Part shown: positions 3,255 to 57,282 of the stretch, one piece after another
Numbering within the stretch: position 1 is the first letter of the stretch
Layout of the letters: each line of letters starts with the position of its first letter
NCBI GenBank assembly: GCA_900169975.1
Contig: LT827124.1
Location: 186,001-250,000 of the forward strand
DNA from: Pseudoflavonifractor sp. Marseille-P3106
GTDB lineage: Bacteria > Bacillota > Clostridia > Oscillospirales > Oscillospiraceae
DNA length: 64,000 bases
Reading direction: 5' to 3'
Program-made: the position numbers and the translations under genes
Notes under the pieces: generated by a model
Databases searched by the model: none
Seen by the model: the letters and a program-made list of their open reading frames with translations, nothing else
What the model was told of the DNA's origin: nothing

Positions 3255-3272
3255 GGTTAGCCATAACTTACC
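3255..3272. promoter_or_regulatory. GGTTAG-N6-CTTACC box (one mismatch)
   Basis: An imperfect copy of the palindrome that recurs in this window, 26 nt upstream of the GTPase start on the minus strand. The right half reads CTTACC in place of CTAACC. Confidence 0.55.
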
Positions 3273-3328
3273 ACAGGAAACACAAGTTTGTCAGTACCAA
3301 GTGAGACTCCGGCAATCTCGATTGATAC

Positions 3329-3385
3329 TTGACGGACGCCTCCGAACCCGGTAAAATATACGCCAGAGGTTAGCAGTAACTAACC
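3329..3385 (+). promoter_or_regulatory. Promoter and GGTTAG-N6-CTAACC operator of Crp/ABC operon
   Basis: The -35 is TTGACG (3329-3334) and the -10 is TAAAAT (3352-3357), with 17 nt between them. A perfect GGTTAG-N6-CTAACC palindrome lies at 3368-3385, across the expected transcription start, so binding there would repress. Confidence 0.75.
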
Positions 3386-3401
3386 AGAGAGGAGGGGTAT
3401 T

Positions 3402-4073
3402 TTGGAGCAGGTGGAACTGGAACGGAGGCTGGCACAGTCGCCTCTTCTGGCAGGGGTCTCCCTGCCGGCGGAGCAGGCGCGCGTCCAGTCATTTCCGGCG
3501 GGCCATATCCTCAGCGACCGGCCCGGCGGCGTGCCCTCCGTAGGGCTGATCCTGTCCGGGCGGGTAGAGGTCTACTCCGTGGCCCTGGACGGCAAAGATG
3601 TCCAGCTCAGCACGCTCCCTGCCGGGGAGTGCTTCGGTGTCTGCAATCTGCTGGCCGGCGCTGAACTGGAAACGGTCCTGCGCTGCGGGGAGGAAACCGA
3701 AGTTCTTTATATCCCTAAACCCGTACTGCTGGCGTGTATGGAGCGGGACGCCGGATTGTCCCTCCGGTACGCGGAGCTGTGCAACCAAAAGCTCCAGTTT
3801 CTGCTCCGGCGCATCGAACTGCTCACCATGCAGTCCTGCCGTGGGCGGGTCATCGCCCATCTGTTGGCCGGTCAGGACAGGAACGGGTGTGTGAAGCCCA
3901 CCGGCTCCCGGGAGGACCTCGCACGCCAGCTGGGCGTCAGCCGGGCGGCGCTGTTCCGGGAACTGGCGGCCCTTCAATCCATGGGCGTCCTGCGGTCAGA
4001 GGGAAATCTCCTCACCGTGCTGGATACGCCCGCGCTGGAAAAGCTGCTCTACCACCCCTCCCGCACCAAATGA
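3402..4073 (+). CDS. Crp/Fnr-family transcriptional regulator
   Basis: A 223-residue regulator with an N-terminal cyclic-nucleotide-binding-type beta roll (about residues 30-115) and a C-terminal winged helix-turn-helix (about 168-195, including EDLARQLGVSRAALFREL). It starts with TTG at 3402 behind a strong GGAGGGG; no ATG fits. The Cys residues are not in the Fnr Fe-S pattern, so the effector is unknown. It is followed after 23 nt by a lipoprotein-permease-ATPase importer and probably controls it. A second Crp/Fnr gene heads the related importer operon at 10562. Confidence 0.85.
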   Translation: MEQVELERRLAQSPLLAGVSLPAEQARVQSFPAGHILSDRPGGVPSVGLILSGRVEVYSVALDGKDVQLSTLPAGECFGVCNLLAGAELETVLRCGEETEVLYIPKPVLLACMERDAGLSLRYAELCNQKLQFLLRRIELLTMQSCRGRVIAHLLAGQDRNGCVKPTGSREDLARQLGVSRAALFRELAALQSMGVLRSEGNLLTVLDTPALEKLLYHPSRTK

Positions 4074-4096
4074 TCAGGAAAGGAAGTACCGTACCA

Positions 4097-5167
4097 ATGA
4101 AAAAACTGCTCTCTCTGTTTTGCACACTGTCCCTGTCTGCCGCACTTCTGGCCGGATGCTCCGGCGGAAACGGCAACACCAATGCAGCGGCGGATGGTGC
4201 GGAGTCCACTTCTCCGACCTTAACGGAGCCGGAAACTACGTCCCAGCAGGAGACGGCTGCTCCGGTGGATGTCAATGTGATGGCCCTCAAGGGGCCTACT
4301 GCCATGGGCATGGTGGAATTCATGAGCCAGGCAGACACGGGCGAACTCACCGACAACAACTATCACTTCAGCATCACCGCGGCCACCGATGAGGTCTCCG
4401 CCGCTCTGGCCCAAGGGACTACGGATCTTGCTGCGGTCCCGGCCAATCTGGCTTCCGTCCTCTATAACAACACCGAGGGCGGCGTGCAGGTGCTGGCCAT
4501 CAACACCCTGGGTGTGCTTTACATCGTAGAGAGCGGCGATACCGTCCACTCTGTGGAGGATCTGCGGGGCAAGACCATCTACGCCAGCGGAAAGGGCAAT
4601 ACGCCGGAGTATGCCCTCAACTATGTGCTGACCCAGAACGGCATTGACCCGGCCTCCGATGTGACTATCGAGTGGAAGAGCGAACAGGCTGAGTGCCTGT
4701 CGGCCCTTATGGCGGAGGAGAACACCATCGCCATGCTGCCTCAGCCCTTCGTCACCACCGCTCAGACAAAGAGCGAAAATATCCGTGTGGCGCTGGATCT
4801 GACCGAGGAGTGGGACGAGATCCAGGCGGAGAGCGACGCCCCCTCCACGCTGGTCACCGGTGTGGTGGTTGGCCGCACGGAGTTTGTAGCGGAGCACCCT
4901 GAAGCGGTCTCCGCGTTCCTGGAGCACTACCGGGCGTCGGTGGAGTATGTGAACGCCAATGTGGATGAAGCCGCACAGCTCGTAGGCCAGTATGAGATCG
5001 TCGCCGCAGAAGTGGCACAGAAGGCCCTGCCGGAGTGCAATATTGTCTTTATCGAGGGTGTGGAGATGAAGGACAGCCTCTCCGGGTATCTTTCCGTCCT
5101 GTTTGAGCAGAACCCCAAATCTGTGGGCGGTGCCCTGCCCGATGATGCCTTCTACTACAGCCGCTGA
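4097..5167 (+). CDS. ABC importer substrate-binding lipoprotein (NMT1/SsuA-like)
   Basis: A 356-residue secreted lipoprotein. The N-terminus has a signal peptide ending in a lipobox, LLAGC, with the acylated Cys at residue 21, followed by an Asn/Thr/Glu-rich linker. The mature part is the periplasmic-binding-protein fold of the nitrate/sulfonate/thiamine-precursor (NMT1/THI5-like) group, with the usual DLRGKTIYASGKGN hinge region. The start at 4097 was chosen over upstream in-frame codons because the signal peptide begins there. It supplies substrate to the permease (5174) and ATPase (5927). The substrate cannot be told; the setting suggests a metal complex or cofactor precursor. Confidence 0.88.
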   Translation: MKKLLSLFCTLSLSAALLAGCSGGNGNTNAAADGAESTSPTLTEPETTSQQETAAPVDVNVMALKGPTAMGMVEFMSQADTGELTDNNYHFSITAATDEVSAALAQGTTDLAAVPANLASVLYNNTEGGVQVLAINTLGVLYIVESGDTVHSVEDLRGKTIYASGKGNTPEYALNYVLTQNGIDPASDVTIEWKSEQAECLSALMAEENTIAMLPQPFVTTAQTKSENIRVALDLTEEWDEIQAESDAPSTLVTGVVVGRTEFVAEHPEAVSAFLEHYRASVEYVNANVDEAAQLVGQYEIVAAEVAQKALPECNIVFIEGVEMKDSLSGYLSVLFEQNPKSVGGALPDDAFYYSR

Positions 5168-6572: not shown

Positions 6573-9500
6573 TCAAGACAAATAGTACAAGAACGAACGA
6601 AGGCGCGACCGGGCAGCCTCATCCCAGTCGTGATCCATGGCCAGGTGGAAGTGCGGTACGCCGTCCAGCGCACCGGTCATCTCCAAGATCGCGGTGGTAT
6701 TTTCATATCTGGGCGCCATGGTCAGCACCCCGGCGCACCGTCCGCCTAACTCCAGCCCTTTAGCCAAACGATGCCGGCCATTGGCTCCGGAAAATCCGGG
6801 CAGAAGGCGGTCTGCGGAGGAGCGCAGAGACTCCAGTTCAGGGGAAAAACTGCTGCGGGGGCCCAGCAGACGGCCGAGTACTTCCACGCGGCCCGCCCAC
6901 TCCCGGCAGGCCGAGCTTCCCGCATCCCGCCAGAGGAACCACAGATATTCGCTCAGCGGCGCCCGGAGCAGCCGCCAGCCCTCCTGTTCCAGTGTATCGG
7001 GGACGCCGTCATGAAGGGTGAAGAGGGTGAACGGCTCACCCACGATCCCAAGCGTCCGTCCCTCCGGCGGAATGGCGCCGATGTGCGCCGCAAGGGTTTC
7101 CAGCTCTGCCCAGCCTGGCACACCCGCCGGAGCCAGTGCGTCCCGCTGTTCCGGCGGAGCGCACAGCAGGAGATCTCCGACGAGGAACGCCCGGAACAGC
7201 AGATCCGGCTCCGGGCAGCGCTCCGGAAGCGTCTCCAGTTCCGGCGCGATGACCTTCACGCGGCAAAGCCCCTGGCGTTCCAATACCGTCTCCACGCCCC
7301 AGGGGTATTGCCCGTCTGCCTCCGCGCCCTGGGTGGAGGGAAGAAGCACCTGAAACGGGCCGCTCTCCGCTTCTGCCGCCGTCAGGACGCCGCCCAGCAG
7401 GGCCGGGAATGGCAAATACTCCTTGGAGCTGGTCTCCGCCCTCCCCAGCGGCAGGGTGGTACTGTCGAGCCGCAGGGTGCGCGTCTCCGTTTCCCAGGCC
7501 GCCTCACAATATGCGCGGAGATAAGCGGTAAACGGCGGAAGGTCAGGCACGAGCAGCGGCCCTCCGGTTCTCTCCGGCACGGCGGCCACCGCAGTAGGGC
7601 GGTGTACCACGGAGGTGAGGGAAAAGCCCGCCGGAAGCGGCTGGGCAGGGCGGCCCTCCAGGCTCTGAAGAAACGCCTCGATCCGTGTGATCACGCCCAC
7701 GGGAGAGAAATGCTCGTCCACCTCGATCTGCAGATAGGGCTTGTCTCCCATTTCCTTCCGAAACAGATAGGAAAGCATGGTGTCCGGGCCGCAGCCGTGG
7801 TTGGTCAGATAGACGGCATACAGGTTTGGATGATGGGCCACGAGCTTGGCCCCGGACAGGATGTGCTGACCAAAGGGCCAGTACAGATTGGGGTAGTCCT
7901 CCGACAGATCCAGGTCGTGGGCGGGCAAGTGGGACAGGGTGATGACCTTATGCCCGCGCTCCAGCAGCAGCCGGGGAATACCCATGTTGAGCACCGGATC
8001 GGAAAGGCCGTAGTTCCGGGTAATGAGTACCAGCACCTTGTCGTCCGGTCTGAGGGACGCCAGCAGTTCCTGCCCCTGCTTCTCCACCGCCGCGGTATGC
8101 CGCCGCACCGCCTTGGCCCCGGATAGCAGGGCGGGCAGACAGCGCGGCTTTGGTATTCCCAGCTGCTTCCCGACGCCCAGCATGGCGGAGGCCATTGCCT
8201 CCTGTCCAAAGTCCAGGTCGAACACCGGGCTGAGCAGGGTGATTCCCCGCCGCTCCAGATCCAGGGCATTGGCCGCCAGCCGGGGCGCGGTCTGCATATA
8301 GACACAGCCATAATTGTGCTCTACATGGGAGGACTCGTGCTTCATGGTGTGGACAGAGGGCATGAAGATATAGTCCACGCCCTGTTCCGCCAGCCATGCC
8401 ATGTGGCCGTGGAGCAGCTTCACCGGGTAACAGGTCTCCGCCTGGGCAGTCTGCTGGGCCAGCCGGATGATCTCCTCATTTGTGGGCGGAGAGAGCAGGA
8501 CATTGAATCCCAAGTTCCGGAAAAATGCATTTGCCATGGGGAAGAATTTGTGGATCACCAGCGCATAGGGGACGCCCACCATCTTTTTCCCTGGGACCCG
8601 GATGGGGTCATACCCCTCCAGCAGCAGCGCCCCCGCCCGCTGGTAGAAGGCGATGTTCTCCGCCACCCCTGGCCCGGCGGCGTGTTCCGCCCCGGCCGCT
8701 GTGTCAAATCCGTGGAAGCAGGACGGGCCGCGGACTGACTCCAGCGCCAGCAGGGCCGCTCCATAGGCGCCGCTGATGGGGAAACAGGGTGAAACTGTGA
8801 GCCGCTCCCCCAATTCCTGCTGAAAGGCGGCCACGATCCCGGGATTGTAGGCAACACCGCCCTGAAGCACCACGCGGCTTCCGACAGGCTTGGCCCCAAC
8901 GACCTTGTGGAGGTAGTTGCGGACAATGGACCGGCACAGGCCAGCCGCCACCTCTGCCTGGGAGGCGCCCCGGGAGAGTGCGGACTGGATGGCTGTCTCG
9001 ATAAACACCGTACACCGCTCTCCCAGCTCCACCGCGCTGGGCGCGCTGAGGGCCAGAGGGCCGAACTCCGCCAATGGGATACCCATGCGCGCGGCCTGCT
9101 CTTCTACAAAGGAGCCGGTTCCGGCGGCGCAGATCCTGTTCATCTGAAAGTCGGCCACCTGTCCGCCCCGTAGGGAGATATACTTGGAGTCCTGCCCTCC
9201 GATCTCAAAGACCGTATCCACATCCGGCGACCAGTGGACAGCCGCCCGAGCTTGGGCGGTAATCTCATCCCGCACGGCGTCTGCCCCGATGAGGCGGCCA
9301 ATGCGCTCCCGGCCGGAGCCGGTGACGCCCACTGCCAGGAAGGACACCGGCCCAAAGCGTTCATGGATGACATCCAGGCCCCGGCGCACCGCCCCCTCCG
9401 TGTCCCCGGCTGTGCGGAGATACTGGTAGTCGATCAGCGTACCGTCCCGGCCGGTGAGCACCAGATCCGTGCTGGTGGACCCCACATCAATCCCCAGGAC

Positions 9501-10436
9501 ACACCCATCCGGCGGGATGGTACCGGTGGCCGCGGGGACAGACGGAGGTGTACCGGGAAGTACGCGCAGCGCCGGCTGACGGCACAGCCGATCCCCACCT
9601 TCCAGCGCCCCGCCGCATAAACTGGCCAGCAGTTCCCCCATAGAGCAGGTGGCGGTCTCCATGGCTGCCTCCGCGGCTCCCGCGGCGCCGGCGTAAGGGA
9701 ATTTCTCCGGCAGGATCAGCTCTGCTTCCGTCAATCCGAAGACCTCCCGCACAGCCTGGATCACACCCTGATTATGCCCGATGCCGCCGCACAGGGCCAC
9801 GGGCTTTTCCACGGGAAGCCCCCGGACGATCACCGCCTTGTAGTTGCGCACCATGGCGTAGCAAAGGCCCAGGAGGATGTCCGGTGTGGGCACCCCCTCC
9901 TGCTGCCGATGGATGATGTCCGTTTTGGCGAAGACCGCGCAGCGGCCGGAGAGCCTTGGGATGGAGCGGGCCTGCCCCACCAGGCGGGAGTAGTCCTCCA
10001 GTTTCAGTCCCAGCCGGGACATCTGATCCTCAAAGAAGGAGCCGGTACCTCCGGCGCAGTGTTCATTTACCGCAAACCGGGGCGGGGTGTTCTGATCCAA
10101 GCCGGTGAGGAAGCGGGCGCTCTGGCTGCCGATTTCAATGGCGGAGCGGGCTTCCGGGGCCAACAGCCGGACGCCGAGGTGGATGGCTGGGATCTCCCCC
10201 AGCACGGCCAGGGCATCGCACCCCTCTTTCAGCCGGTCGCCCGCGTTTCCGGTGATGACCACCGGGCAGCCGCAGGCCCCCGGGTCCGCGGCTAAAAGCG
10301 CCCCCAGCAGACGGCGGGCGCTCTGAACCACCGCTCCATAGTGGAAAGCCGTTTTTTCCCAAAGGAACTTTCCCTCCGGGGAAAGCAGGACGAGCTTCAA
10401 TGTGGCGTTTCCACAATCTAATCCGATTCCGTTCAT
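6573..10436 (-). CDS. Giant acyl-CoA dehydratase activase / DUF2229 / HgdB-like fusion protein
   Basis: A 1287-residue soluble protein. Residues 1-290 and 315-580 are two BadF/BcrA/HgdC ASKHA ATPase domains. Each keeps both cysteines that hold the [4Fe-4S] cluster between HgdC-type subunits: C127 (CAGGTGSF) with C166 (GRCAVFA) in the first, and C436 (CAAGTGSF) with C475 (GERCTVF) in the second. Residues about 615-940 are DUF2229, with candidate cluster cysteines C669 (ETCYPVK), C711 (NYGCVY) and C882 (NHGCGPD). The tail is HgdB-like. The family uses ATP to drive low-potential electrons onto a cluster, as in 2-hydroxyacyl-CoA dehydratases and double-cubane-cluster proteins; here donor and acceptor appear fused. 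The start is set at 10436, where GGGAGG sits at proper spacing. The substrate is unknown. Confidence 0.85.
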   Translation of the reverse strand: MNGIGLDCGNATLKLVLLSPEGKFLWEKTAFHYGAVVQSARRLLGALLAADPGACGCPVVITGNAGDRLKEGCDALAVLGEIPAIHLGVRLLAPEARSAIEIGSQSARFLTGLDQNTPPRFAVNEHCAGGTGSFFEDQMSRLGLKLEDYSRLVGQARSIPRLSGRCAVFAKTDIIHRQQEGVPTPDILLGLCYAMVRNYKAVIVRGLPVEKPVALCGGIGHNQGVIQAVREVFGLTEAELILPEKFPYAGAAGAAEAAMETATCSMGELLASLCGGALEGGDRLCRQPALRVLPGTPPSVPAATGTIPPDGCVLGIDVGSTSTDLVLTGRDGTLIDYQYLRTAGDTEGAVRRGLDVIHERFGPVSFLAVGVTGSGRERIGRLIGADAVRDEITAQARAAVHWSPDVDTVFEIGGQDSKYISLRGGQVADFQMNRICAAGTGSFVEEQAARMGIPLAEFGPLALSAPSAVELGERCTVFIETAIQSALSRGASQAEVAAGLCRSIVRNYLHKVVGAKPVGSRVVLQGGVAYNPGIVAAFQQELGERLTVSPCFPISGAYGAALLALESVRGPSCFHGFDTAAGAEHAAGPGVAENIAFYQRAGALLLEGYDPIRVPGKKMVGVPYALVIHKFFPMANAFFRNLGFNVLLSPPTNEEIIRLAQQTAQAETCYPVKLLHGHMAWLAEQGVDYIFMPSVHTMKHESSHVEHNYGCVYMQTAPRLAANALDLERRGITLLSPVFDLDFGQEAMASAMLGVGKQLGIPKPRCLPALLSGAKAVRRHTAAVEKQGQELLASLRPDDKVLVLITRNYGLSDPVLNMGIPRLLLERGHKVITLSHLPAHDLDLSEDYPNLYWPFGQHILSGAKLVAHHPNLYAVYLTNHGCGPDTMLSYLFRKEMGDKPYLQIEVDEHFSPVGVITRIEAFLQSLEGRPAQPLPAGFSLTSVVHRPTAVAAVPERTGGPLLVPDLPPFTAYLRAYCEAAWETETRTLRLDSTTLPLGRAETSSKEYLPFPALLGGVLTAAEAESGPFQVLLPSTQGAEADGQYPWGVETVLERQGLCRVKVIAPELETLPERCPEPDLLFRAFLVGDLLLCAPPEQRDALAPAGVPGWAELETLAAHIGAIPPEGRTLGIVGEPFTLFTLHDGVPDTLEQEGWRLLRAPLSEYLWFLWRDAGSSACREWAGRVEVLGRLLGPRSSFSPELESLRSSADRLLPGFSGANGRHRLAKGLELGGRCAGVLTMAPRYENTTAILEMTGALDGVPHFHLAMDHDWDEAARSRLRSFLYYLS

Positions 10437-10460: not shown

Positions 10461-10509
10461 TTGACATTTGCCAGGCAAAGCGCTATAATGCGGTTAGCAT
10501 TTACTAACC
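10461..10509 (+). promoter_or_regulatory. Near-consensus promoter with two nested palindromes
   Basis: The -35 is TTGACA (10461-10466) and the -10 is TATAAT (10484-10489), 17 nt apart, both perfect consensus. The spacer holds the palindrome TTTGCC-A-GGCAAA (10467-10479). GGTTAG-N6-CTAACC follows at 10492-10509, across the expected start of transcription. Such a strong promoter is probably kept under repression. Confidence 0.85.
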
Positions 10510-10561: not shown

Positions 10562-11239
10562 ATGAACCCAATTACTACGGTGATGCGTCAGTGCCGCCTG
10601 TTTGACGGCATCCCGGAAGAGAAATATCAAAATGTACTGGCCTGCCTTCGGGGAGAAACCAAATTGTTTCGTAAGGATGCCATCCTCCTCCAGATCGGCG
10701 AGTGCCAGAAGCGGCCCGGCGTTGTGATGGATGGGACGCTGCGGATCTCCCTGTATAGTGAGGACGGCAATCTGGTCACCATCGAGCGGCTGGGGCGGGG
10801 GCAGGTATTTGGGGAGACTCTGGTGTGCTCCATGGCGGAGGACAGTCCCATCCAGATCGACGCGCTGACCGATGTGCAGGTGCTCTATCTGGATTTTGAC
10901 CCGCTGCTTCTTCAGCAGGAATGCGCTTGCCCGCACAAAGCCCAGGTCACCGCCAACCTGCTCCGTGAAATGGGGCGGAGCGCCCTTTTTCTCAATCAGA
11001 AAATGCGGATCTTGGCCCAGAACCGGCTCCGCAACCGGATCAAGCTTTATCTCCAGATGCTCCCTGTCAAGCCCGGCGGCGAACTCCATCTGGACATGGG
11101 GCGGGGCGAACTGGCCGACTATCTGTGTGTAGACCGCAGCGCCCTCTCCCGGGAACTGGGGCGTATGCAGAAAGAGGGGATTCTCGCCTTTCAGGGCCAA
11201 CAGGTGCGTATTCTGGATCAGAGTTTTCTCAGCGTATAA
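10562..11239 (+). CDS. Crp/Fnr-family transcriptional regulator
   Basis: A 225-residue regulator with an N-terminal cNMP-binding-like beta roll (residues about 15-110) and a C-terminal winged helix (GRGELADYLCVDRSALSREL, near 180-199). Cysteines at 11, 28, 48 and 125 are not in a clear Fnr cluster motif. ATG 10562 was chosen over the earlier in-frame codon at 10529 because GGAGG precedes it by 7 nt. It has its own near-consensus promoter and terminator, with palindromes in both, so autoregulation is likely. The following importer operon (11350-14559) is the natural target. It resembles the regulator at 3402 in architecture but is clearly diverged. Confidence 0.88.
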   Translation: MNPITTVMRQCRLFDGIPEEKYQNVLACLRGETKLFRKDAILLQIGECQKRPGVVMDGTLRISLYSEDGNLVTIERLGRGQVFGETLVCSMAEDSPIQIDALTDVQVLYLDFDPLLLQQECACPHKAQVTANLLREMGRSALFLNQKMRILAQNRLRNRIKLYLQMLPVKPGGELHLDMGRGELADYLCVDRSALSRELGRMQKEGILAFQGQQVRILDQSFLSV

Positions 11240-11306: not shown

Positions 11307-11324
11307 GGTTAGCTGTTGCTAACC
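11307..11324. promoter_or_regulatory. GGTTAG-N6-CTAACC operator before second importer operon
   Basis: A perfect palindrome with spacer CTGTTG, 25 nt upstream of the binding-protein start at 11350. The -35 and -10 elements upstream are not clear. Confidence 0.7.
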
Positions 11325-43122: not shown

Positions 43123-43123
43123 C

Positions 43124-44924: not shown

Positions 44925-45010
44925 GATTTGCTTTCGCTAACCGCAGCCATTGTAACTGATAAAAAAGCTCTTTTCCGCTCCGCTCCGCCGATCCTGTCCC
45001 GTTTGGACAG
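44925..45010 (-). promoter_or_regulatory. Operator/promoter region of ABC pair (cassette A)
   Basis: In transcription order: the inverted repeat CTGTCC-N5-GGACAG (45010-44994), a TACAAT -10 (44953-44948) with no good -35, and a degenerate GGTTAG-type box (44942-44925, one perfect half). The same order is found upstream of the S gene at 48666-48790. A weak -35 fits an AraC activator site upstream. Confidence 0.5.
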
Positions 45011-47361: not shown

Positions 47362-47375
47362 TCCGAGGGTCCTCC

Positions 47376-48041: not shown

Positions 48042-48042
48042 C

Positions 48043-48665: not shown

Positions 48666-48790
48666 GGTTAGATAATGCTAACCGTTTGAATAAAGAATTG
48701 GACGCCATGCGTCCCTCAACATTGCATTATTTTAGCGAAAAGAAATCGTTCTGTCCGCTCCATATAGACGATTATGCTCTGTTTGGACAG
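48666..48790 (-). promoter_or_regulatory. Operator/promoter region of S-T-AA-AraC genes (cassette A)
   Basis: A perfect GGTTAG-N6-CTAACC box (48666-48683, spacer ATAATG) lies 18 nt upstream of the S start. Further upstream are a possible promoter (TTGAGG and TTTATT, 18 nt apart, minus strand) and the halves CTGTCC (48751-48756) and GGACAG (48785-48790), with a CGCTCC element shared with 44925-45010. Confidence 0.55.
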
Positions 48791-49335: not shown

Positions 49336-49713
49336 TCATTCCGGCTCCACCGCCCCTTTTAACAATTCAAAGGACCGCTGGCTGATGGTGTGCTCCATCC
49401 GGCAGGCCTCCCGTTCCGCGGTCTGGGGATCGACCCCGGCTGCGACAAGCTGGCGAGTAAAGAAGCAGTGTTTCTCATAGGTCTGCTCGGCTACCTCCCG
49501 GCCCACATCCGTCAGGAACAAGAAAGAATTTTCGTCCATGGTGAGAAAACCACCCGCTTTCAAAGTGGAGACCGCATGACACACGCTGGGTTTTGATACA
49601 TCAAGGTGCCGAGCCACATCCACGGAGCGCACCATGCCTTTTTCCTTTTGGAGCACCAGCACGGCCTCCAGATAGTCCTCACCGGATGCTCGTAATTTTA
49701 TCGAAACCACCAC
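49336..49713 (-). CDS. DtxR/MntR-family metal-dependent repressor (cassette B)
   Basis: A 125-residue regulator similar to the one at 40973: VRSVDVARHLDVSKPSVCHAVS in the recognition helix region and ERACRMEHTIS-like ligands (EREACRMEHTIS) near residues 100-111. It ends cassette B, 3 nt after the ABC gene start region. Its base composition matches the GC-rich host rather than the AT-richer ABC genes next to it. The two DtxR proteins have nearly the same recognition helix, so they may share sites. Confidence 0.87.
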   Translation of the reverse strand: MVVSIKLRASGEDYLEAVLVLQKEKGMVRSVDVARHLDVSKPSVCHAVSTLKAGGFLTMDENSFLFLTDVGREVAEQTYEKHCFFTRQLVAAGVDPQTAEREACRMEHTISQRSFELLKGAVEPE

Positions 49714-49716: not shown

Positions 49717-51450
49717 TTAAACTACCCAGTCAAGACTTTCCTGCTGGATATGATATAACTTTTCGTACAGTCCCTTATGGGCAATTAGTTCGTCGTGCGT
49801 TCCTCGCTCTACAAGTTTCCCGTTTTCCAGTACAAAGATTTGGTCGGCATCCACTACGGTACGCAGACGGTGAGCAATCATAATGACGGTTTTCCCCTCG
49901 ACCAATCGGGCGATAGCCCGCTGGATCAGCACCTCATTTTCAGGATCAAGGGATGCGGTCGCCTCGTCCAGCAAAATAATAGGGGCGTCTTTCAGAAGAG
50001 CGCGGGCAATCGAAATACGCTGGCGCTCTCCGCCAGAAAGGGTGCTTCCATTTTCACCGAGAACGGTTTGGTATCCATCCGAAAGCCGCATTACAAATTC
50101 GTCACAGTAGGCCGCTTTTGCAGCGGCCATAACCTGCTCCTCTGTTGCGGCCATGTTGCCGACGCGAATATTGTTATATACCGTATCGTTGAAAAGAGTA
50201 ACATCCTGGAATACAAAAGATATGCTTTTCATCAAATGCTCAGGCTCGATGTTTTTTATATTTTCTCCACCGATAGTAATTGAGCCCTTCTGAACATCCC
50301 AAAAGCGGGCAATCAGCTTGGAGATGGTACTTTTTCCGCTGCCGGACGGGCCAACCAGTGCGGTGATACTCCCCGACGGGATTTTCAGCGAGACATCCTT
50401 GATAACATCTTCCTTAGCATACGCAAAGGTAACATTCTTTAATTCAATATCGTATGTGTGAACATCCTGCTCGTTTCCCTCCATCGCGGGAGTCGTTAGA
50501 AGCATACGCATCCGTTTTGTGACTGTCCCTAAATGGAAGAGGGAGGTGAGTTGAGAAAGAATGGCAAGGATAGGGCCATAGAGTTGAGTGGAGAACATCA
50601 AAAGAACAAGCAATGGGAGTAATTCGATTTGTCCGCCCGTAATAAGCACTGTACCCACGAAAATGGCGATGCCCAAACTGGCCTGCAAAATTAAGGCGGC
50701 GGATTGTACCAACACACCAGAAACGAGTTCCGCTTGAATTGCGACCTTTTTCATGGCTAAAAGTGCGCGATTCAAAGTAGAAAACCTTTCACCGCTCAAC
50801 CCGCAGGACTTGATGATCTTGATACCCTCCAAATACTCCTGAATTTGACTTGACGCTTCCAGCTTAATACCTACCTGCCGGTCAAACATGCGTATCTGCA
50901 AGTTGCGCCCGGCCCAAATAATCAGGAATGTAATAGGCATGGTAGCAAACAATGCCAGAGCCATTCTCCAGTCGAAAAAGGCCAGACAAACACAGGTAAG
51001 AGTAACAGAGATCACATTGGCAATCAATGGTGGAATGGTGCTGCTCAGCATGGACTCCATGCTCGCACAGTCGGCCATCATATTGGTGGTTATATCAGAC
51101 AGGTCCCTGGAATTAAAGAAACTCATAGGGAGCTTACGCAAATGTTCTGCGATTCGCAGTCGTGTATTGCTGGCCTCCTTATAGGACGCCAAATAGGTTT
51201 TTCGGTAATCATTTCTTGCTGCAAGGAAGACCAGAAGTGAAGCTATGATGCCGACAATCAGTAATCCCCACATATTCCCCCAGGAAATGTCTTTCCCATA
51301 AAAGGGATTTAGTAATTGCCAAAACAGCAAAGTTGTTACGCCGGCAGGAAGTAGAAGTGCAATATTGGTCAGGGTGCAGGCGACGATGGCTTTTTTCAAA
51401 TCAGAGTAGCCTTTCTCGGACAACAGCAATTTTTCTTTCAGAAATTTCAT
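49717..51450 (-). CDS. ABC exporter-fold half-transporter (cassette B)
   Basis: A 577-residue half-transporter with six membrane helices and an ATPase domain (GPSGSGKST, LSGGERQR, LLDEATASLDPEN, HRLRTVVDADQ). It is the counterpart of 41374. It overlaps the upstream half-transporter gene by 4 nt. The codon and base use are clearly more AT-rich than cassette A. Confidence 0.88.
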   Translation of the reverse strand: MKFLKEKLLLSEKGYSDLKKAIVACTLTNIALLLPAGVTTLLFWQLLNPFYGKDISWGNMWGLLIVGIIASLLVFLAARNDYRKTYLASYKEASNTRLRIAEHLRKLPMSFFNSRDLSDITTNMMADCASMESMLSSTIPPLIANVISVTLTCVCLAFFDWRMALALFATMPITFLIIWAGRNLQIRMFDRQVGIKLEASSQIQEYLEGIKIIKSCGLSGERFSTLNRALLAMKKVAIQAELVSGVLVQSAALILQASLGIAIFVGTVLITGGQIELLPLLVLLMFSTQLYGPILAILSQLTSLFHLGTVTKRMRMLLTTPAMEGNEQDVHTYDIELKNVTFAYAKEDVIKDVSLKIPSGSITALVGPSGSGKSTISKLIARFWDVQKGSITIGGENIKNIEPEHLMKSISFVFQDVTLFNDTVYNNIRVGNMAATEEQVMAAAKAAYCDEFVMRLSDGYQTVLGENGSTLSGGERQRISIARALLKDAPIILLDEATASLDPENEVLIQRAIARLVEGKTVIMIAHRLRTVVDADQIFVLENGKLVERGTHDELIAHKGLYEKLYHIQQESLDWVV

Positions 51451-53264
51451 TCGATTGCACCCCCTTTTCCTGCGCGGATCTTCCAGCTGATAGACTCCAT
51501 GTAACTATTCCACATTTGTGTGTACTTCCCTTGCCGTTCCATCAAGGTATCGTGAGTCCCTTGCTCAATCAGCTGTCCGTGCTCCATCACAAGTATCTGA
51601 TCTGCATTTCGGATCGTTGATAACCGATGGGCAATCATGATAACCGTTTTATTTTGTATTAGTTTTTCAAATGCTTTTTGAATCAGATACTCGTTTTCTG
51701 GGTCACTGAAAGCAGTTGCCTCATCTAACACAATAATGGGAGCGTCCTTGATAATCGCCCTGGCAATCGCGATGCGTTGCCGCTCACCACCGGAGAGCCG
51801 AATGCCAGACGCACCAATCATAGTATGGTAACCGTCTGGCAGTTTTTCTATAAAGTCGTGACATTGTGCTGCCTTTGCTGCCTCAATCACCTGCGCTTCT
51901 GAGGCGGTCGGATTACCCATCCGAATATTATCCAAAATGCTCTGCTTGAACAAGAAAGTATCTTGAAAGACGAAACTGACCTGCCGCATAAGCTCCGCCT
52001 GTGGTATTTTGCGGATGTCTACTCCGCCAATACGAATACATCCTTCTGTCACATCCCAGAAGCGAGAAATCAGATTGGCAATCGTGCTCTTTCCGCCACC
52101 AGAAGGACCAACAATGGCCGTTACTTCGCCCTGTCTGGCTATGAAAGATACATCGTTGAGGGCTTTAACCGAAGTGCCCGTATCGTAAGAGAATGAAACA
52201 TGGTCGAACTCAATGCTATGCCCCTGCTCTCTGGCCCCCACATCTTGATTTTGCAGAACGGGGATGCTCAATACCTCTTCCATGCGTTCCACATTTCCGT
52301 CAATTTGTGTGAAAGACTCTGAAATATACATGATCTTATTAAGTACGCCCGAAATAGCGGGAGCCAAGACAAGATAAAAAATAAAGGTCAAGGAATAAGT
52401 ACGATAGTCCTCGGCTCCCATGCCAATAAATATCCCTACCGGAATCAAGAGCAGGTAAATATTATGGATGATTGTCGTAAACCCCGGCATACAATTTTGC
52501 CAGCCCATAGCGTACTCCAGCACAAAAGAAGTATAATCAGTGATGGATTTGCTTAGACGGCGAAAAGAATCTGCGGTTTGATTAAATGCTTTGATTTCCG
52601 GCATACCACGGACATATTCTACCGAAGCATTGTTCATATCTTCCTGCGCGGTCTGATAGTGGTGCATTTTTTCTTTGGCACTCCCATTAAAACCAAGGAA
52701 TTGCACCACAAAGGCCAAGATAATTCCAAAAAGAGAAACGATACCATACCGCCAGTCAATGGCCAGCAGAAGAATTACCAGGGCGAGTGGGGCCACCAGA
52801 GAAGCAACAAAATCCGGGAACTGATGCGCGATAAATTTTTCAATGCTCTCAATGTTCTCGTCCATAATCTTCCTCATCCGACCGCTGCCAATGGTCAGAT
52901 GATACCCTAAAGGGATTTCCGTAATATGGTTCGCAAAGGCCAGCTTCAGCTCATAAAGCGTTCCGAAAGCCGCCAGATGGGAACACATCAACGCGCAGAA
53001 ATAAAGGATTACATTTCCGGCAATCCCCCCGAGAGCCATCCAGCCATATCGGAGAACAACGCTCATATTTGCGTTCGCCATATCGGGAAAAACTCCGATT
53101 AGTTCCCGCATTATAAAATAGATAGAAAGATACGGTAGGAAAGAGCACACTGCGGCTGCTGCGGCAAGAATGCCTGAGATAAAAACAAGGCCCTTATGTT
53201 GTGATGCCAATTCCAGACACCGAGCCATACCGGTTTTTTTCTTGCGCGTTTCTTCCTGTGCCAT
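51447..53264 (-). CDS. ABC exporter-fold half-transporter (cassette B)
   Basis: A 605-residue half-transporter: an N-terminal basic tip, six membrane helices (about 20-310), then GPSGGGKST, LSGGERQR and VLDEATAFSDPEN. It pairs with 49717. The same D-loop asymmetry as in cassette A (FSDPEN against SLDPEN) supports heterodimers of the YbtPQ type. It follows the double ATPase after 12 nt. Confidence 0.88.
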   Translation of the reverse strand: MAQEETRKKKTGMARCLELASQHKGLVFISGILAAAAAVCSFLPYLSIYFIMRELIGVFPDMANANMSVVLRYGWMALGGIAGNVILYFCALMCSHLAAFGTLYELKLAFANHITEIPLGYHLTIGSGRMRKIMDENIESIEKFIAHQFPDFVASLVAPLALVILLLAIDWRYGIVSLFGIILAFVVQFLGFNGSAKEKMHHYQTAQEDMNNASVEYVRGMPEIKAFNQTADSFRRLSKSITDYTSFVLEYAMGWQNCMPGFTTIIHNIYLLLIPVGIFIGMGAEDYRTYSLTFIFYLVLAPAISGVLNKIMYISESFTQIDGNVERMEEVLSIPVLQNQDVGAREQGHSIEFDHVSFSYDTGTSVKALNDVSFIARQGEVTAIVGPSGGGKSTIANLISRFWDVTEGCIRIGGVDIRKIPQAELMRQVSFVFQDTFLFKQSILDNIRMGNPTASEAQVIEAAKAAQCHDFIEKLPDGYHTMIGASGIRLSGGERQRIAIARAIIKDAPIIVLDEATAFSDPENEYLIQKAFEKLIQNKTVIMIAHRLSTIRNADQILVMEHGQLIEQGTHDTLMERQGKYTQMWNSYMESISWKIRAGKGGAIE

Positions 53265-53276: not shown

Positions 53277-54779
53277 TTATGTGCCAGAATAACAAACGCC
53301 TCTTTGGCCACAGCTCTGATACCCAATTTTGTCCAAAAGAATATCTACGGAGTGGATAGGAAAGTCGTCCGTGATTGCGCCGTTTTCCAGGCGGATAGCC
53401 CGGTCACAACAAGAGAGCGCACATTCTGCGTCGTGGGTGATTACCAGAATGGTACGCCCCATTCCGGCCAGCTTGCGGATGATTTGGCTCACATTGCGCA
53501 TATTGGCGCCATCCAGTCCGCTGGTAGGCTCATCAAGAATAATAATAGGCGCGTCGTGCATCAAGGCTACCCCCAAAGCCAGTCGTTGTTTCTGCCCACC
53601 GGATAGGGTGGCCGGGTGCTGCTCGGCATACTCCTCCAGTTCCAGGGCTTTGAGAATTGTCCGGGCTCGTGCGTTGCGCTTCTCATCCGTAGGTGCCCCA
53701 GTGGTCAATTCATCAACAAGGTCTTCTCCAAATAACTGACTGTCTAAATCCTGTGGAATGTACCATACTTTGCCCATCCGCTCTCTTGGCCGGGTCTTAT
53801 GACCAAACAGGAATACCTCACCGGAGTTTTCCTTCAAAAGGCCGGCAAAGATGCGCCCAAATGTACTTTTCCCTGTGCCGTTCGGCCCGATGATACCGAC
53901 GATTTCTCCTCTGTGGCAGACAAAATCCAAGTGTTCAGCCACCACCGTGCCATCAAAGGCTTTATGGAGCCCCTGCGTCTCCAGCACTACTTCGTCTGTG
54001 GCGGCCGATGGCATCTGCTGAAACGCCATTTGATAGAGGTCCGGCGTCCGCAAGCCAAGCGTATGCACTTCTGCCGATGGGAGGCTCTTCATTTCTTCCC
54101 TTGAGAACTCTCGCACAATCGCACCGTGCTGAATACAGAAAAATCGGTCCGCAACATCCATGAGATAGTACAAGCGGTGCTCTGCGATTACAATGGTTTT
54201 TCCCTGTGCCTTCAGATTGCGGATAATATCCCCGAAGCGGTAGGTGGATTCGATGTCCAGATTTGCGGAAGGCTCGTCCATGACATAGATCTCCGGCTCA
54301 ATGGCCTGAGCGGAGGCGATGGCTACCTTTTGCCGCATTCCATAGGACAGTGTGTGCAGGCTGTGATCCAAAAGGTCCTCAATTTTATTGTACTGGGCTG
54401 CCTGGAGTACATGGGACTGGATTTCCTCATGGGTATATCCGTAATTTTCACAGCCGAAAGCGATTTCTCCGGCTACCTCATTGGCAAAAAATTGACTCCG
54501 GGGGTCTTGGAACACATTACCTACCAGCTTCCCGCGTTCCCAGGAGTGGATTTCCTCCAAAGGTTTATCCCCTACACGGATTTGCCCGCTCAGCTCCCCC
54601 TCATAGAAATAGGGGATCAACCCATTGATTACACGGGTCAAAGAGCTTTTTCCGCTTCCGGATGGGCCAGTCAGTACGATTACTTCCCCAGCGCGAATGT
54701 CCAGTGTAACATGACTGATCTGATCGCCCCGACCACTATAAGAAAATGTAAGATCCCGAATTGCGATTTCTTTTCCCAT
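53277..54779 (-). CDS. ECF transporter double ATPase (cassette B)
   Basis: A 500-residue fusion of two EcfA-type ATPases. The N-half has GPSGSGKSS, then HTLSYGMRQK where the LSGGQ signature should be (LSYGM, a changed signature) and YVMDEPSANLD; the C-half has GPNGTGKST, LSGGQKQR and ILDEPTSGLD. The altered signature in the first half suggests asymmetric ATPase sites. It partners T (54792) and S (55493). Confidence 0.88.
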   Translation of the reverse strand: MGKEIAIRDLTFSYSGRGDQISHVTLDIRAGEVIVLTGPSGSGKSSLTRVINGLIPYFYEGELSGQIRVGDKPLEEIHSWERGKLVGNVFQDPRSQFFANEVAGEIAFGCENYGYTHEEIQSHVLQAAQYNKIEDLLDHSLHTLSYGMRQKVAIASAQAIEPEIYVMDEPSANLDIESTYRFGDIIRNLKAQGKTIVIAEHRLYYLMDVADRFFCIQHGAIVREFSREEMKSLPSAEVHTLGLRTPDLYQMAFQQMPSAATDEVVLETQGLHKAFDGTVVAEHLDFVCHRGEIVGIIGPNGTGKSTFGRIFAGLLKENSGEVFLFGHKTRPRERMGKVWYIPQDLDSQLFGEDLVDELTTGAPTDEKRNARARTILKALELEEYAEQHPATLSGGQKQRLALGVALMHDAPIIILDEPTSGLDGANMRNVSQIIRKLAGMGRTILVITHDAECALSCCDRAIRLENGAITDDFPIHSVDILLDKIGYQSCGQRGVCYSGT

Positions 54780-54791
54780 TGTGATACCCCT

Positions 54792-55496
54792 TTACAGCAG
54801 AACGCAGCATACGATTCCAGCTGCAGTGCTGACCAACATGAGGAACGCGTCCAGCGGTGAGATGCGGCTGACATAGTAACTTTGCTTTTTGTAAGGACTC
54901 TCAATGCCGCGGACAATAGCCGAGGCGGAGAGCTCATCCGCAATTTTTAGAGAGCGGAATACCATAGGCACGATTGCATATTCCAGCGTATTCAATGGGT
55001 GCCGCAGGACCGTAGGTACCGACCGAAGAAAGCCTCGGATTTTCATAGCCTCCCGAACTTCTCCGAACTCCAGGATGATCGTCGGAGCAAAGCGTAGCAT
55101 GACGACCAGGACCAGCATAGCCTTGGCTGGGATAGGCAGTTTCCGCAGACTGGCCGTGAGCTTGCCGGAGGGAATACGGAAAAGCAGATATGCTGGCATA
55201 GCGGGAAGGAGCAGCTTGTAGATCATGCTCAGCAAAAGCGGAGATGGAAATGATATGCTGTATTTTGTCTCCAAATATAGGCCAACAACGGTTACCAAAT
55301 AGACTGTATAACAGCCGATCCCCTGCTTATATAGCCCAAAATAACAGAGAATCAAGAGTAGCCAGAAAGTGAACACCGCATGGCCAATCAGGTCTGTGGT
55401 TAGAAAACTGACCAGGCAGGAGCAGACGGTCAAAAATAAGACCGTCCGCCCATCTACCTGCTCGATTCGCTTTTGTGTCGTACCTGTTCTGTTCAT
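54792..55496 (-). CDS. ECF transporter T component (CbiQ-like, cassette B)
   Basis: A 234-residue membrane protein with about five helices and the coupling motif near the end (SLKIADELSASAIVRGIESP). It overlaps the S gene by 4 nt. The lower GC content of this region is easy to see in its A/T-rich third positions. Confidence 0.86.
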   Translation of the reverse strand: MNRTGTTQKRIEQVDGRTVLFLTVCSCLVSFLTTDLIGHAVFTFWLLLILCYFGLYKQGIGCYTVYLVTVVGLYLETKYSISFPSPLLLSMIYKLLLPAMPAYLLFRIPSGKLTASLRKLPIPAKAMLVLVVMLRFAPTIILEFGEVREAMKIRGFLRSVPTVLRHPLNTLEYAIVPMVFRSLKIADELSASAIVRGIESPYKKQSYYVSRISPLDAFLMLVSTAAGIVCCVLL

Positions 55497-56113
55497 CCCA
55501 CAATACCGGCTTTTTGGAAGTGCTTCCGCAATAGGCGCTGACCAAACAATGTCCCGAGGAAAGTAAGTACAGCGGTAATTGCCGCTCCCAGCAGCATCAG
55601 GGCCGGGGAAGTTACCATAGCCATCTGCATTTCTAAGGTTTCAGAGGTAAATCCACTCTCCAGAGCCATTGCCGTATAGCTGTCCCATGCCCACCAGAGG
55701 GGAACAGCACAGCCGACAAAGTTACCCACGCAGTTAATCGTCCAGCCGATACGAGTTCGGAGCGGGTTGCGGTAGGTGTCTTTACCAAGCATGGAGAGTT
55801 CTGCAATAAGTCCTACCGCCAGGAAATACGGGAAGAGGAACATGTAGCCCATGACGCCTTGGATCAGGCCGTAGATACCCGCCCAGGCAAAAAGAAGACC
55901 ATGCTTATTGACGCGGTTAGCAGCCACCAGGAAAAAGACTGCGCAGATGAAACCGTCAATTCCGGCTGAGCCATACAGATATACGAGTGGGAAAGGGAGT
56001 GTAAGCGAACTCATTACCATCATGATGATAAAACAAATCACCATCATAGCGGCTATTGTCATGATATCGCGTATGCTAAACTTTTTCTTTGCGCTTGGAA
56101 CTGATTTCTCCAT
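55493..56113 (-). CDS. ECF transporter S component (MptD/Trep_Strep type, cassette B)
   Basis: A 206-residue membrane protein with about six helices, ending RLLRKHFQKAGIVG, close to the end of the cassette A S protein (ARAMFRKHFEKAGLV). This shared tail shows that both are of one S family, though the rest differs. GGAGG lies before ATG 56113. The large hairpin at 56140 carries the GGTTAG box just upstream. Confidence 0.85.
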   Translation of the reverse strand: MEKSVPSAKKKFSIRDIMTIAAMMVICFIIMMVMSSLTLPFPLVYLYGSAGIDGFICAVFFLVAANRVNKHGLLFAWAGIYGLIQGVMGYMFLFPYFLAVGLIAELSMLGKDTYRNPLRTRIGWTINCVGNFVGCAVPLWWAWDSYTAMALESGFTSETLEMQMAMVTSPALMLLGAAITAVLTFLGTLFGQRLLRKHFQKAGIVG

Positions 56114-56139
56114 ATTGAACGACCCTCCTGTAAAAATAT

Positions 56140-56175
56140 AAATCCGTTGGTTAGCTGCGTCTAACCAACGGATTT
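56140..56175. promoter_or_regulatory. GGTTAG-N6-CTAACC box within a 15-nt-arm hairpin
   Basis: Arms 56140-56154 and 56161-56175 are perfectly complementary; the central 18 nt are the box (56149-56166, spacer CTGCGT). It lies between the AraC gene end (56244) and the S gene start, so it may be both operator and terminator or attenuator. Confidence 0.75.
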
Positions 56176-56243
56176 ATTATACAAGAACCGATTTTTGTTC
56201 TCTACTCCATTTCATAAATGCAGGGTCGAAAATAGCCCGAAAA

Positions 56244-57236
56244 CTAAATGGCTTTTTGCGCAGTCCGGTAATCCTTGGGAAGCACCCCGAACACATCCCG
56301 GAAAGCGCGGGCAAACTTGCTGGCGTTGCTGTATCCCAGTGAGAGTGCGATTTGATTGATGGACTCATTACTCTCTCGAAGTTGAACTGCGGCACTATTC
56401 ATCCGGTAATGTTTCAAATAAGCATATGGGCTACGCCCATATATTTGCTTGAAAATGGTCTGGAATGTAACGGTACTGATTGCCTCACCTCGTAGGAATT
56501 GCTCCAGCGGAGTACTGCGGCTTAAATCCTTAAGCATAGCTTTACGAACTCGCTTCACAATTTCAATATGTTCTCGGGCATAATAAGTGGCGGCTACACG
56601 ATCTTCCTTGCGCAGTTTTGTGGCGTGGTAGAGCAGTTCCAATACTTTGATGCGAAAGTATTGGGAAGTTTCATGCTCTTTGGCCGCATACAACTCCTCA
56701 AACACATGACACATGGAGGGAGGTGTTTTACAAATATACCATTGATGGGCTGTGTCTAAGTCCTCCTCCAAAACAGAAATATCAATCTGGAAGAGGGCGA
56801 GCTGAGATCTGGTCACTTCCGTCATTGAATTTTTATCGAGCACCAAGCTCAGTCCACTACAATAGTCAAATGGGAATGAGTACCGAGCCGGCATATTCAG
56901 CATACCGTTTACACAAAATTCATCCTGCTGCAGGTGAAACACTTTGTCACCCTCAAACTCAAATTCAACCCGGCCTTCTTGATAATGCCGAATTTCCAAC
57001 ACATTTCGCATTTCATTCGGCTCATCAAAAATATCTGAACAGTTGAAATCCATGAAAATCAGGTCGATACCCGGAAATATGGAGTAATCATATAAAATCC
57101 CAGTACCATTACACTGATAGGAAATGACGGAACAACCCGGCTTACGGCTTATCAATTTTGCGTTTTTATCATACCAGTCAGGATGGTAGCCATTTAGAGT
57201 CGGGTCCAAATTCTGATAAATACTTCTTTGCGTCAT
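56244..57236 (-). CDS. AraC-family regulator (cassette B)
   Basis: A 330-residue regulator. The N-part is a cupin-like sensor (ISYQCNGTGILYDYSIFPGI); the C-part has the double HTH (AISTVTFQTIFKQIYGRSPYAYLKHYR and LGYSNASKFARAFRDVFG). It is the first gene of cassette B, whereas in cassette A the AraC gene is internal. A GGTTAG-type box lies 29 nt upstream of its start. Confidence 0.87.
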   Translation of the reverse strand: MTQRSIYQNLDPTLNGYHPDWYDKNAKLISRKPGCSVISYQCNGTGILYDYSIFPGIDLIFMDFNCSDIFDEPNEMRNVLEIRHYQEGRVEFEFEGDKVFHLQQDEFCVNGMLNMPARYSFPFDYCSGLSLVLDKNSMTEVTRSQLALFQIDISVLEEDLDTAHQWYICKTPPSMCHVFEELYAAKEHETSQYFRIKVLELLYHATKLRKEDRVAATYYAREHIEIVKRVRKAMLKDLSRSTPLEQFLRGEAISTVTFQTIFKQIYGRSPYAYLKHYRMNSAAVQLRESNESINQIALSLGYSNASKFARAFRDVFGVLPKDYRTAQKAI

Positions 57237-57264
57237 AACTCTGTTTCACCTCTATAAGCAGAAG

Positions 57265-57282
57265 GGTTAGCTTTCGCTAATC
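57265..57282. promoter_or_regulatory. GGTTAG-N6-CTAATC box (one mismatch)
   Basis: Spacer CTTTCG is the same as in the degenerate box at 44925. It lies upstream of the leftward AraC gene starting at 57236. Confidence 0.6.

Follow-up and report, generated by a model that had tools for sequence, protein, structure and literature searches.

In Actinobacteria, the usual iron box of IdeR/DtxR is 19 bp long, with CCTAA repeats and two dimers, each of which reads a TTAG-N6-CTAA half-site pair, and single-dimer IdeR sites are known as well, as described in PMC8464063. The EqbA/eqbB operator of the ICESe2 equibactin locus of Streptococcus equi, according to the account in PMC3672683, contains GTTAG-N6-CTAAC inside a 36-bp palindrome, and its binding by EqbA depends on the palindrome and responds to Fe2+, Zn2+ and Mn2+. 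EqbA is described there as a short DtxR-like repressor without SH3 domain and with Cys at the DtxR C102 position, encoded in a locus with importer genes and carried by an integrative conjugative element. The mobile element 023_CTn1 of Clostridioides difficile RT023 resembles the present locus in its DtxR/MntR-type regulator, AraC, ABC proteins and ECF transporter, but differs in having a siderophore biosynthesis cluster, and the pertinent part of its description gives no operator (PMC6814731).

The 64-kb window (the whole stretch of DNA that was analysed) carries boxes of the form GGTTAGYnnnnRCTAACC, each very probably a ferrous-iron operator for one dimer of an EqbA/MntR-like DtxR repressor of the short kind, about 125 aa long and lacking SH3. 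The likeness to EqbA covers the type of repressor, the Cys, the GTTAG-N6-CTAAC sequence found with these DtxRs, the 36-bp palindrome and the importer genes. The locus differs from that described for EqbA in the outer G/C base pair (GGTTAG/CTAACC), in 19 boxes and four repressors versus one operator, in Asp instead of Asn at the DtxR M10 position, and in also including activase, peroxiredoxin, P1B and CRP genes. Compared with the actinobacterial iron box, the TTAG half-sites are shared, but the proposed site is for one dimer, CTAA is preceded mostly by G or A and not by C, and is followed by CC, His is found at the IdeR Gln43 position of the island proteins, and the SH3 domain is missing. MntR of Bacillus subtilis and E. 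coli has the same two-domain architecture; here, however, its Glu99 position is Cys and feo is among the targets. As in MntR, the N-terminal metal ligands include Asp and Glu. The first-pass annotation had assigned the half-site to DtxR/IdeR iron boxes and had set their 1-nt gap against the 6 nt seen here; the half-site holds, but the contrast is only formal, as 6-nt spacing is not foreign to the family, given the IdeR dimer (PMC8464063) and the EqbA operator (PMC3672683) as described.

Boxes of the window and the genes behind them

All ten boxes previously claimed for the window were located, five perfect, four with one mismatch and one with two. Shuffled sequences gave 1.27±1.08 boxes with up to two mismatches, and at least 10 were reached in 0 of 100 shuffles. 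The boxes and genes are as follows (window coordinates):

-256 (C18:185744), box outside the window, with TTGACA-17-TATAAT, ahead of the ZIP gene
1..777, + strand, ZIP-family transporter (gene start at -5) behind box C18:185744
2516..3229, - strand, CobW/HypB/UreG-type nucleotide-binding protein, then ABC-type ATPase 1785-2528
3255..3272, box with one mismatch, 25 nt before the CobW-type gene
3368..3385, perfect box, 16 nt before the CRP-type gene 3402-4073
3402..4073, + strand, CRP-type regulator (cNMP_binding and HTH_Crp_2)
6573..10436, - strand, giant acyl-CoA-dehydratase-type activase (BcrAD/BadFG and DUF2229, about 1287 aa)
10492..10509, perfect box between the divergent activase (55 nt) and CRP-type (52 nt) genes; TTGACA-17-TATAAT on the + strand ends 2 nt before it
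10562..11239, + strand, CRP-type regulator
11307..11324, perfect box, 25 nt before the solute-binding protein gene
11350..12375, + strand, NMT1-type solute-binding protein, then permease 12365-13114
14669..16768, - strand, P1B-type heavy-metal ATPase, FSCAL in place of the CPx motif usual in such ATPases
17255..18157, - strand, AraC-type regulator
18163..18417, - strand, 84-aa ORF with GMACSMC motif, HMA-like by eye
18437..18454, box with one mismatch, 19 nt before the 84-aa ORF
18532..18549, box with one mismatch, 114 nt before the 84-aa ORF; TATTAT ends 2 nt before it
40973..41377, - strand, short DtxR-family repressor, immediately following the ABC pair that box 44925 heads
41374..44893, - strand, ABC transmembrane/ATPase pair (41374-43122 and 43124-44893)
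44925..44942, box with two mismatches, 31 nt before the ABC pair
45979..48648, - strand, ECF-type importer: S 48043-48648 (Trep_Strep/MptD), T 47376-48119 (CbiQ), ATPase 45979-47361
48666..48683, perfect box, 17 nt before this S component
48891-49301, Trans_reg_C-domain gene, 34 nt after the DtxR gene 49336-49713
49336..49713, - strand, short DtxR-family repressor after importer genes headed by box 56149
49717..53264, - strand, ABC transmembrane/ATPase pair
53277..56113, - strand, second ECF-type importer: S 55493-56113 (Trep_Strep), T 54792-55496 (CbiQ), double ATPase 53277-54779
56149..56166, perfect box, centre of a 36-bp palindrome, 35 nt before this S component; TATAAT ends 9 nt before it
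56244..57236, - strand, AraC-type regulator
57265..57282, box with one mismatch, 28 nt before the AraC gene

The 84-aa ORF is masked by bigger overlapping ORFs and had no Pfam match at 1e-5. Between box C18:185744 and the ZIP gene, whose start is 233 nt from the box, lies a 54-aa Cys/His-rich ORF with the nearest ORF start.

The position of the boxes upstream of genes was confirmed, as 17 of the 19 island boxes with up to two mismatches have an ORF start with its RBS 16-56 nt downstream and the other two have one at 84 and 114 nt. Closeness to a -10 element, claimed for several boxes, applies to half: in 10 of 20 box/gene pairs a TATAAT-like hexamer (at most one mismatch) ends 2-12 nt before the box, while shuffled upstream DNA gives 21%. 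The palindrome is not equally common inside genes. Once repeated contexts and boxes closer than about 200 nt to the end of a locus are excluded, the boxes inside predicted ORFs number 5 out of 37 and 11 out of 71, versus 84% and 90% of random positions, and this scarcity rules out a coding-sequence origin.

Distribution in the genome and in relatives

The whole 3.12-Mb genome has eight perfect boxes (none in a reversed-pattern control) and 16 with up to one mismatch (control 3), 15 of which fall in one 116-kb stretch (C18:147363-263079). Chance origin is ruled out by this control and by the shuffles of the window. Weaker GTTAG-N6-CTAAC boxes occur also on C1, C15 and C19, with a genome total of 17 and control of 1. 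Within the 157 kb around and including the window, 8, 15 and 19 sites with spacing 6 occur at zero, up to one and up to two mismatches; no other spacing between 0 and 20 exceeds 0, 1 and 3. Other spacings and everted half-sites were ruled out, TTAG/CTAA being found 14 times at spacing 6, at most twice elsewhere and once everted.

The boxes extend past the window on both its sides, and of the window-wide regulon proposed at first the shared box stands, but its unit is the island of about 116 kb plus a host core. The island has 19 boxes (up to two mismatches), which head ECF/ABC importers, the ZIP transporter, the CobW-type gene, a peroxiredoxin, the P1B ATPase cluster and the giant activase with the NMT1-type ABC importer. 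The island, apparently mobile, has a VirD4-type coupling protein and a TraG P-loop protein on the left and serine recombinases on the right. Each of its four DtxR genes comes after importer genes that have a box at their head, which makes autoregulation probable. In the host core, a box lies 22 nt before the first feoA of feoA-feoA-feoB. Against the proposed reading stand the genome's own C15 DtxR, with no box at up to two mismatches in its 3.2-kb locus, and the presence of three Fur-family proteins in the genome.

In 76 genome_contigs loci around homologues of the window DtxRs, the commonest of 7,544 observed inverted-repeat dyads of 5-mers is GTTAG-N6-CTAAC, with 68 unique sites in 51 loci after removal of repeated site contexts (56 loci without removal); the next dyad has 31 in 30, and the same half-site at all other spacings of 0-15 together has one site. 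On the other side, twenty of the 76 loci are without the exact dyad, and nine of these twenty lack the 12-base box even when two mismatches are allowed. The lists of perfect boxes (97) and of DtxR genes of the family (57), in genomes with listed boxes and leaving out the weak matches in G074 and G125, were compared by position: 13 DtxR genes, from 12 genomes, are preceded by a box at 97-186 nt as measured from the profile match, and about 0.02 such pairs are expected by chance. Four listed DtxR genes have boxes within 300 nt downstream, outside this count. What speaks against the reading is that, over 150 whole genomes, presence of a perfect box is not significantly linked to this DtxR type: 68 of the 129 genomes that have the protein carry a box, as do 7 of the other 21 (Fisher p=0.16), and four of these seven (completeness 59-91%) still show no such DtxR when the threshold is relaxed to E 1e-5. 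The comparison falls short of significance, as the DtxR is nearly ubiquitous in the family, and tests at the level of positions were used instead.

Of plasmid records, those of Vescimonas and Lachnospira eligens have no box near DtxR at up to two mismatches, that of Collinsella has near DtxR only one two-mismatch match about 8.6 kb off, and that of Subdoligranulum (H1) has two one-mismatch boxes. In 33 loci of relatives, boxes adjoin 42 predicted genes, of which seven match FeoA, two FeoB, one NifH and one flavodoxin. Of the 124 references listed in the test of boxes against predicted ORFs, 117 were taken further, omitting one duplicate and six of antisense or minor appearance. Among the papers listed in searches of open-licence PMC, none describes the box in Clostridia by title or abstract start.

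The proposed binder and its metal

On comparative evidence, the candidate binders of the box are DtxR-family proteins, both the window's own and their host homologues. Both window proteins match PF01325 (Fe_dep_repress, HTH) and PF02742 (Fe_dep_repr_C, dimerisation/metal domain) above cut-off, and their nearest solved chains include MntR, IdeR and DtxR. At 125 and 134 aa they have no room for an SH3 domain; they were rejected as three-domain iron repressors of the IdeR/DtxR type proper, which would have this domain at the C-terminus. The C102 position is Cys in 126 of 130 sequences, equivalents of E105 and H106 are present in 126 each, and that of H79 in 127; the conserved metal-ligand positions are thereby H79, C102/E99, E105 and H106. 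One dimer would occupy each box, half-site to half-site, across a 6-nt gap like that spanned by each IdeR dimer in the double iron box. The Fe(II)-bound dimer, on or just after the transcription start, would block RNA polymerase, and when iron is scarce it would leave and the genes would be expressed. Host feoA-feoA-feoB is headed by the same kind of box. What the data show is the boxes, where they lie, and their association across genomes with this DtxR subfamily and with feo; binding, iron as effector, repression and operon extents are the parts that we infer.

The single metal regulon that was first suggested gains from boxes before feoA/feoB in relatives and in the host, which point to iron. 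Asp, not Met, at the DtxR M10 (MntR D8) position in 100 of 130 sequences and in all four island proteins makes Mn(II) still possible as effector, and a manganese (or zinc) regulon of MntR type with the same box and repressors could also draw on MntR as nearest solved structure, on MntR as best NCBIfam match (under its cut-off) and on the ZIP transporter. It is nevertheless improbable, as the MntR E99/DtxR C102 position has Cys for Glu in 126 of 130 sequences, feo genes of relatives and of this genome have the box, and the NifH and flavodoxin genes beside boxes are both iron-linked. Still less probable is binding by AraC- or CRP-type regulators of the cluster. AraC genes adjoin boxes in the window and elsewhere in the island and account for 11 of the 75 genes that adjoin boxes near DtxR homologues, and two CRP-type genes follow boxes. 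But in three box-bearing feo-DtxR loci of relatives (L090, L092 and L103, each 3.4 kb) inspection by eye of the listed ORFs showed none that is AraC-like, and an inverted repeat with 12-bp half-site offset, which the EqbA operator as described also has, is what a DtxR dimer reads. That the boxes are structural elements of RNA or DNA, such as attenuator stems or duplicated repeats, is hardly credible: they do lie near the 5' ends of transcripts, and box 56149 is the centre of the 36-bp palindrome, but the half-sites alone are conserved, most of the 6-nt centre varies, the flanks share no arms, and the adjoining genes are unrelated and of many genera.

The activase and the wider meaning

The BcrAD/BadFG-type activase is the least expected member of the proposed ferrous-iron regulon. 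Activase loci were taken from the first 30 of 40 listed matches, the window's own included. Boxes are kept in only one of the other 29, the relative G022 with an activase 75% identical. In G093 (51% identical) the gene lies between the ECF S components and the ABC pair of an importer cluster, with no box at up to two mismatches, and the other 27 loci, whose activases are 30-48% identical and for the most part not orthologues, lack boxes at up to one. A speculative and rather unlikely role is a direct one in iron acquisition, in which the activase, as an ATP-driven electron donor of very low potential, would reduce ferric chelates brought in by the ECF/ABC importers; strict anaerobes would then strip tightly held iron off foreign siderophores by means of the activase. 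Its placement among probable iron-starvation genes makes its role now testable.

For gut Oscillospiraceae and their relatives, the box offers a candidate iron operator from which iron-responsive genes may be read in genomes. It ties one experimentally studied streptococcal operator, that of EqbA, to a regulatory system that seems to be widespread among anaerobes. It also suggests that the importers arrive on mobile elements along with repressor copies of the elements' own, pre-matched to the iron box of the host.

The box and the genes that it heads

The palindrome GGTTAG-N6-CTAACC (the box, with mismatches counted against these half-sites) is present at all ten places named by the first-pass annotation, five times perfectly, four times with one mismatch and once with two. 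Only 1.27 ± 1.08 boxes with ≤2 mismatches were expected in the window, and none of 100 dinucleotide shuffles reached ten. Genome-wide (3.12 Mb), 8 perfect boxes and 16 with ≤1 mismatch were found, against 0 and 3 for the reversed pattern. Fifteen of the 16 lie at 147363-263079 of C18, the contig with the window, and the remaining one on the small contig C2. When spacings of 0-20 were scanned over 157 kb around the window, spacing 6 gave 8, 15 and 19 sites at 0, ≤1 and ≤2 mismatches, and any other spacing at most 0, 1 and 3. The consensus of the 19 sites is GGTTAGYnnnnRCTAACC, with bias inside the 6-nt centre mainly at its first and last base. An RBS-preceded ORF start follows at 16-56 nt for 17 of them, and at 84 and 114 nt for the other two.

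Boxes of the ~116-kb island and the genes at them (C18 coordinates; C18:189255 is window 3255)
147363: AhpC-type peroxiredoxin, then pyridine-nucleotide oxidoreductase
158873: ABC genes
166760: alpha/beta hydrolase
175070: SBP_bac_5 binding protein
176057: LysR regulator
180137, 184117, 234666, 242149, 263062: five ECF S components, Trep_Strep family
185744: 54-aa Cys/His-rich ORF, then ZIP transporter whose start is 233 nt away
189255: CobW-type protein
189368: CRP-type regulator
196492: CRP-type regulator and divergent activase (window 6573-10436, minus strand)
197307: NMT1-type binding protein
204437, 204532: 84-aa ORF with GMACSMC motif, then AraC and P1B ATPase
230925: ABC genes
243265: AraC

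The 54-aa ORF GGCCCRKNNGEHCCGRHSH (C18:185815-185979, window -185 to -21), between box and ZIP gene, possibly encodes a metal-binding peptide. The P1B-type ATPase (window 14669-16768) has FSCAL at the place of the usual CPx metal motif. Behind the box-headed peroxiredoxin at C18:147408, the oxidoreductase is AhpF/thioredoxin-reductase-like by eye; this box would join peroxide defence and iron in one regulon. A three-mismatch box at C18:149686, 19 nt before a methyltransferase-like gene, is probably a genuine copy, since the start of a similar gene of a relative (G066, locus L103:3226) is preceded, at 22 nt, by a perfect box.

The statement that several boxes begin shortly after the -10 was borne out for half of the 20 box/gene pairs: ten have a TATAAT-like hexamer (≤1 mismatch) whose end is 2-12 nt ahead of the box (shuffles 21%), and the other ten are without it. 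Two boxes have a perfect TTGACA-17-TATAAT promoter in front of them, at a distance of 8 nt for 185744 and 2 nt for 196492. Such hexamers would set the box on the transcription start, a repressor-like position.

Boxes of relatives and of the host core

Perfect boxes occur in 75 of 150 genomes of the host's family, the reversed control in 8. Boxes are not equally common inside genes: 5 of 37 in family box loci lie inside a predicted ORF of at least 100 aa (random positions 84%), as do 11 of 71 near DtxR homologues (random 90%). Within 150 nt, 26 of 37 (random 46%) and 69 of 71 (random 41%), respectively, have the RBS-preceded start of an ORF of this length. The 42 predicted box-adjacent genes from 33 of 35 fetched box loci of relatives comprise FeoA (7), FeoB (2), DUF2325 (5), DUF3793 (3), Trep_Strep (3), ABC (4), and NifH and flavodoxin with one match each; the remainder have other or no families. 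Among 75 box-adjacent genes near DtxR homologues, Trep_Strep (36), ABC (23) and AraC (11) were recorded. At three loci of relatives (L090, L092, L103), feoB and/or feoA and a DtxR gene adjoin boxes, and Pfam confirms the families of the genes scanned. In the host itself, AGTTAGCCTAAACTAACT lies 22 nt before the first feoA of a feoA-feoA-feoB operon on contig C15, and a box lies 17 nt upstream of a DUF3793 gene on contig C1. The feo boxes of relatives and host argue for the single metal regulon that had been proposed.

DtxR-family proteins as candidate regulators

PF01325 has eight matches in the genome, seven above cut-off, and four of the eight are in the island:
C18:177115: DtxR gene
C18:227183: DtxR gene (window 40973-41377, minus strand)
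C18:235537: DtxR gene (window 49336-49713, minus strand)
C18:266005: DtxR gene

By gene order and strand, each of the four comes after ECF or ABC genes with a box at their head, and would be autoregulated. The 49336 gene is not the last, as a Trans_reg_C-domain gene follows 34 nt further on. Against the 49336 protein the four island proteins show 67-90% identity; both window proteins have HTH and metal/dimerisation domains and stop too early for an SH3 domain. A fifth copy is a C-terminal fragment (C18:167359-167562, 71-aa open frame), and the gene behind it has a start resembling the Trans_reg_C-domain protein of window 48891-49301.

A homologue search of genome contigs gave 76 DtxR loci, presumably of Oscillospiraceae, Lachnospiraceae, Erysipelotrichaceae, Christensenella and others. 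Every 5-mer inverted repeat there with a spacing of 0-15 was counted, with no use made of the motif from the first-pass annotation. GTTAG-N6-CTAAC ranked first among 7,544 observed dyads, with 68 unique sites in 51 loci, and the second had 31 sites in 30 loci; these are not independent events, since some stretches of the loci overlap or are homologous. At all its other spacings together, this half-site yielded one site. The exact dyad is absent from 20 of the 76 loci, 11 of which have a box with ≤2 mismatches. Among 57 DtxR genes listed, a perfect box lies upstream of 13, which come from 12 genomes, at 97-186 nt from the profile match (~0.02 expected). The dyad rank and these upstream boxes point to DtxR-family proteins as the probable binders, as first suggested.

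Presence over genomes gave no significant link between perfect box and this DtxR type (a box in 68 of 129 genomes with the protein vs 7 of 21 without, p = 0.16; one of the 21, G149, was placed there by inference). At E 1e-24 these seven box genomes lack the protein; weak relatives of it turned up in three, and the other four have none even at 1e-5. The host's C19 DtxR gene has two-mismatch boxes on either side, and no box was found near its C15 DtxR gene. Three Fur-family proteins of the host could also serve iron.

Precedents favour a DtxR dimer, presumably a repressor, as the binder. According to PMC8464063, one IdeR dimer reads TTAG-N6-CTAA, with the same spacing as here. That paper also found that IdeR does not require the contact of its Gln43 with the first C of CCTAA; the island proteins differ in having His at this position, and the operators here lack that C, which fits a shifted readout without proving it. 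EqbA of ICESe2 is a DtxR-like protein that lacks SH3; its binding to the eqbB promoter depends on the palindrome and responds to Fe2+, Zn2+ and Mn2+ (PMC3672683). The GTTAG-ATGTAT-CTAAC of its operator lies within a 36-bp palindrome, and window box 56149 also centres one of 36 bp. At the metal site, Cys stands at the DtxR C102 position in 126 of 130 sequences, and the M10 position is Asp in 100, Met in 15 and Asn in 11. These residues, together with feo, make iron the likeliest effector; manganese is possible.

The activase and the island

The most surprising box-headed member is the ~1287-aa BcrAD/BadFG-DUF2229 protein, the activase. G022, a relative, has a 75%-identical gene with the divergent CRP-like neighbour kept and a one-mismatch box in between; a perfect box precedes a nearby binding-protein-like gene. 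This 18.5-kb stretch also has P-type ATPase, AraC and DtxR-like genes (and a flavodoxin-like one by eye); boxes precede DtxR, and a FecCD permease gene lies behind a further one-mismatch box. In G093, another relative, a 51%-identical protein of 1349 aa (L253, G093:C63:8001-21000, at 5032-9081) lies in an importer cluster, with Trep_Strep S components on one side and an ABC pair on the other; no box with ≤2 mismatches occurs in these 13 kb. Both neighbourhoods suggest a link of the activase to metal-chelate uptake; a role as electron donor is speculation.

To the left of the cluster are VirD4-type and TraG P-loop proteins; on its right, serine recombinases, of which two were scanned, start ~1 kb beyond the 266005 DtxR gene. 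The four island copies score 8e-75 or better; the best DtxR matches of the same-genus genomes G014 and G116 reach 4.8e-34 and 1.5e-34. With these genes and weak matches, the island resembles one conjugative element or several nested ones, presumably mobile. Window stretches 18863-39000 and 58000-64000 carry replication/accessory genes (five proteins scanned; helicase C-terminal, DNA polymerase III beta-clamp, MoxR-type AAA and AAA_23 domains), consistent with nested mobile elements. The boxes at feo, DUF3793 and the C19 DtxR gene point to a core regulon in the host; the regulon of the island is larger, and its boxes are better.
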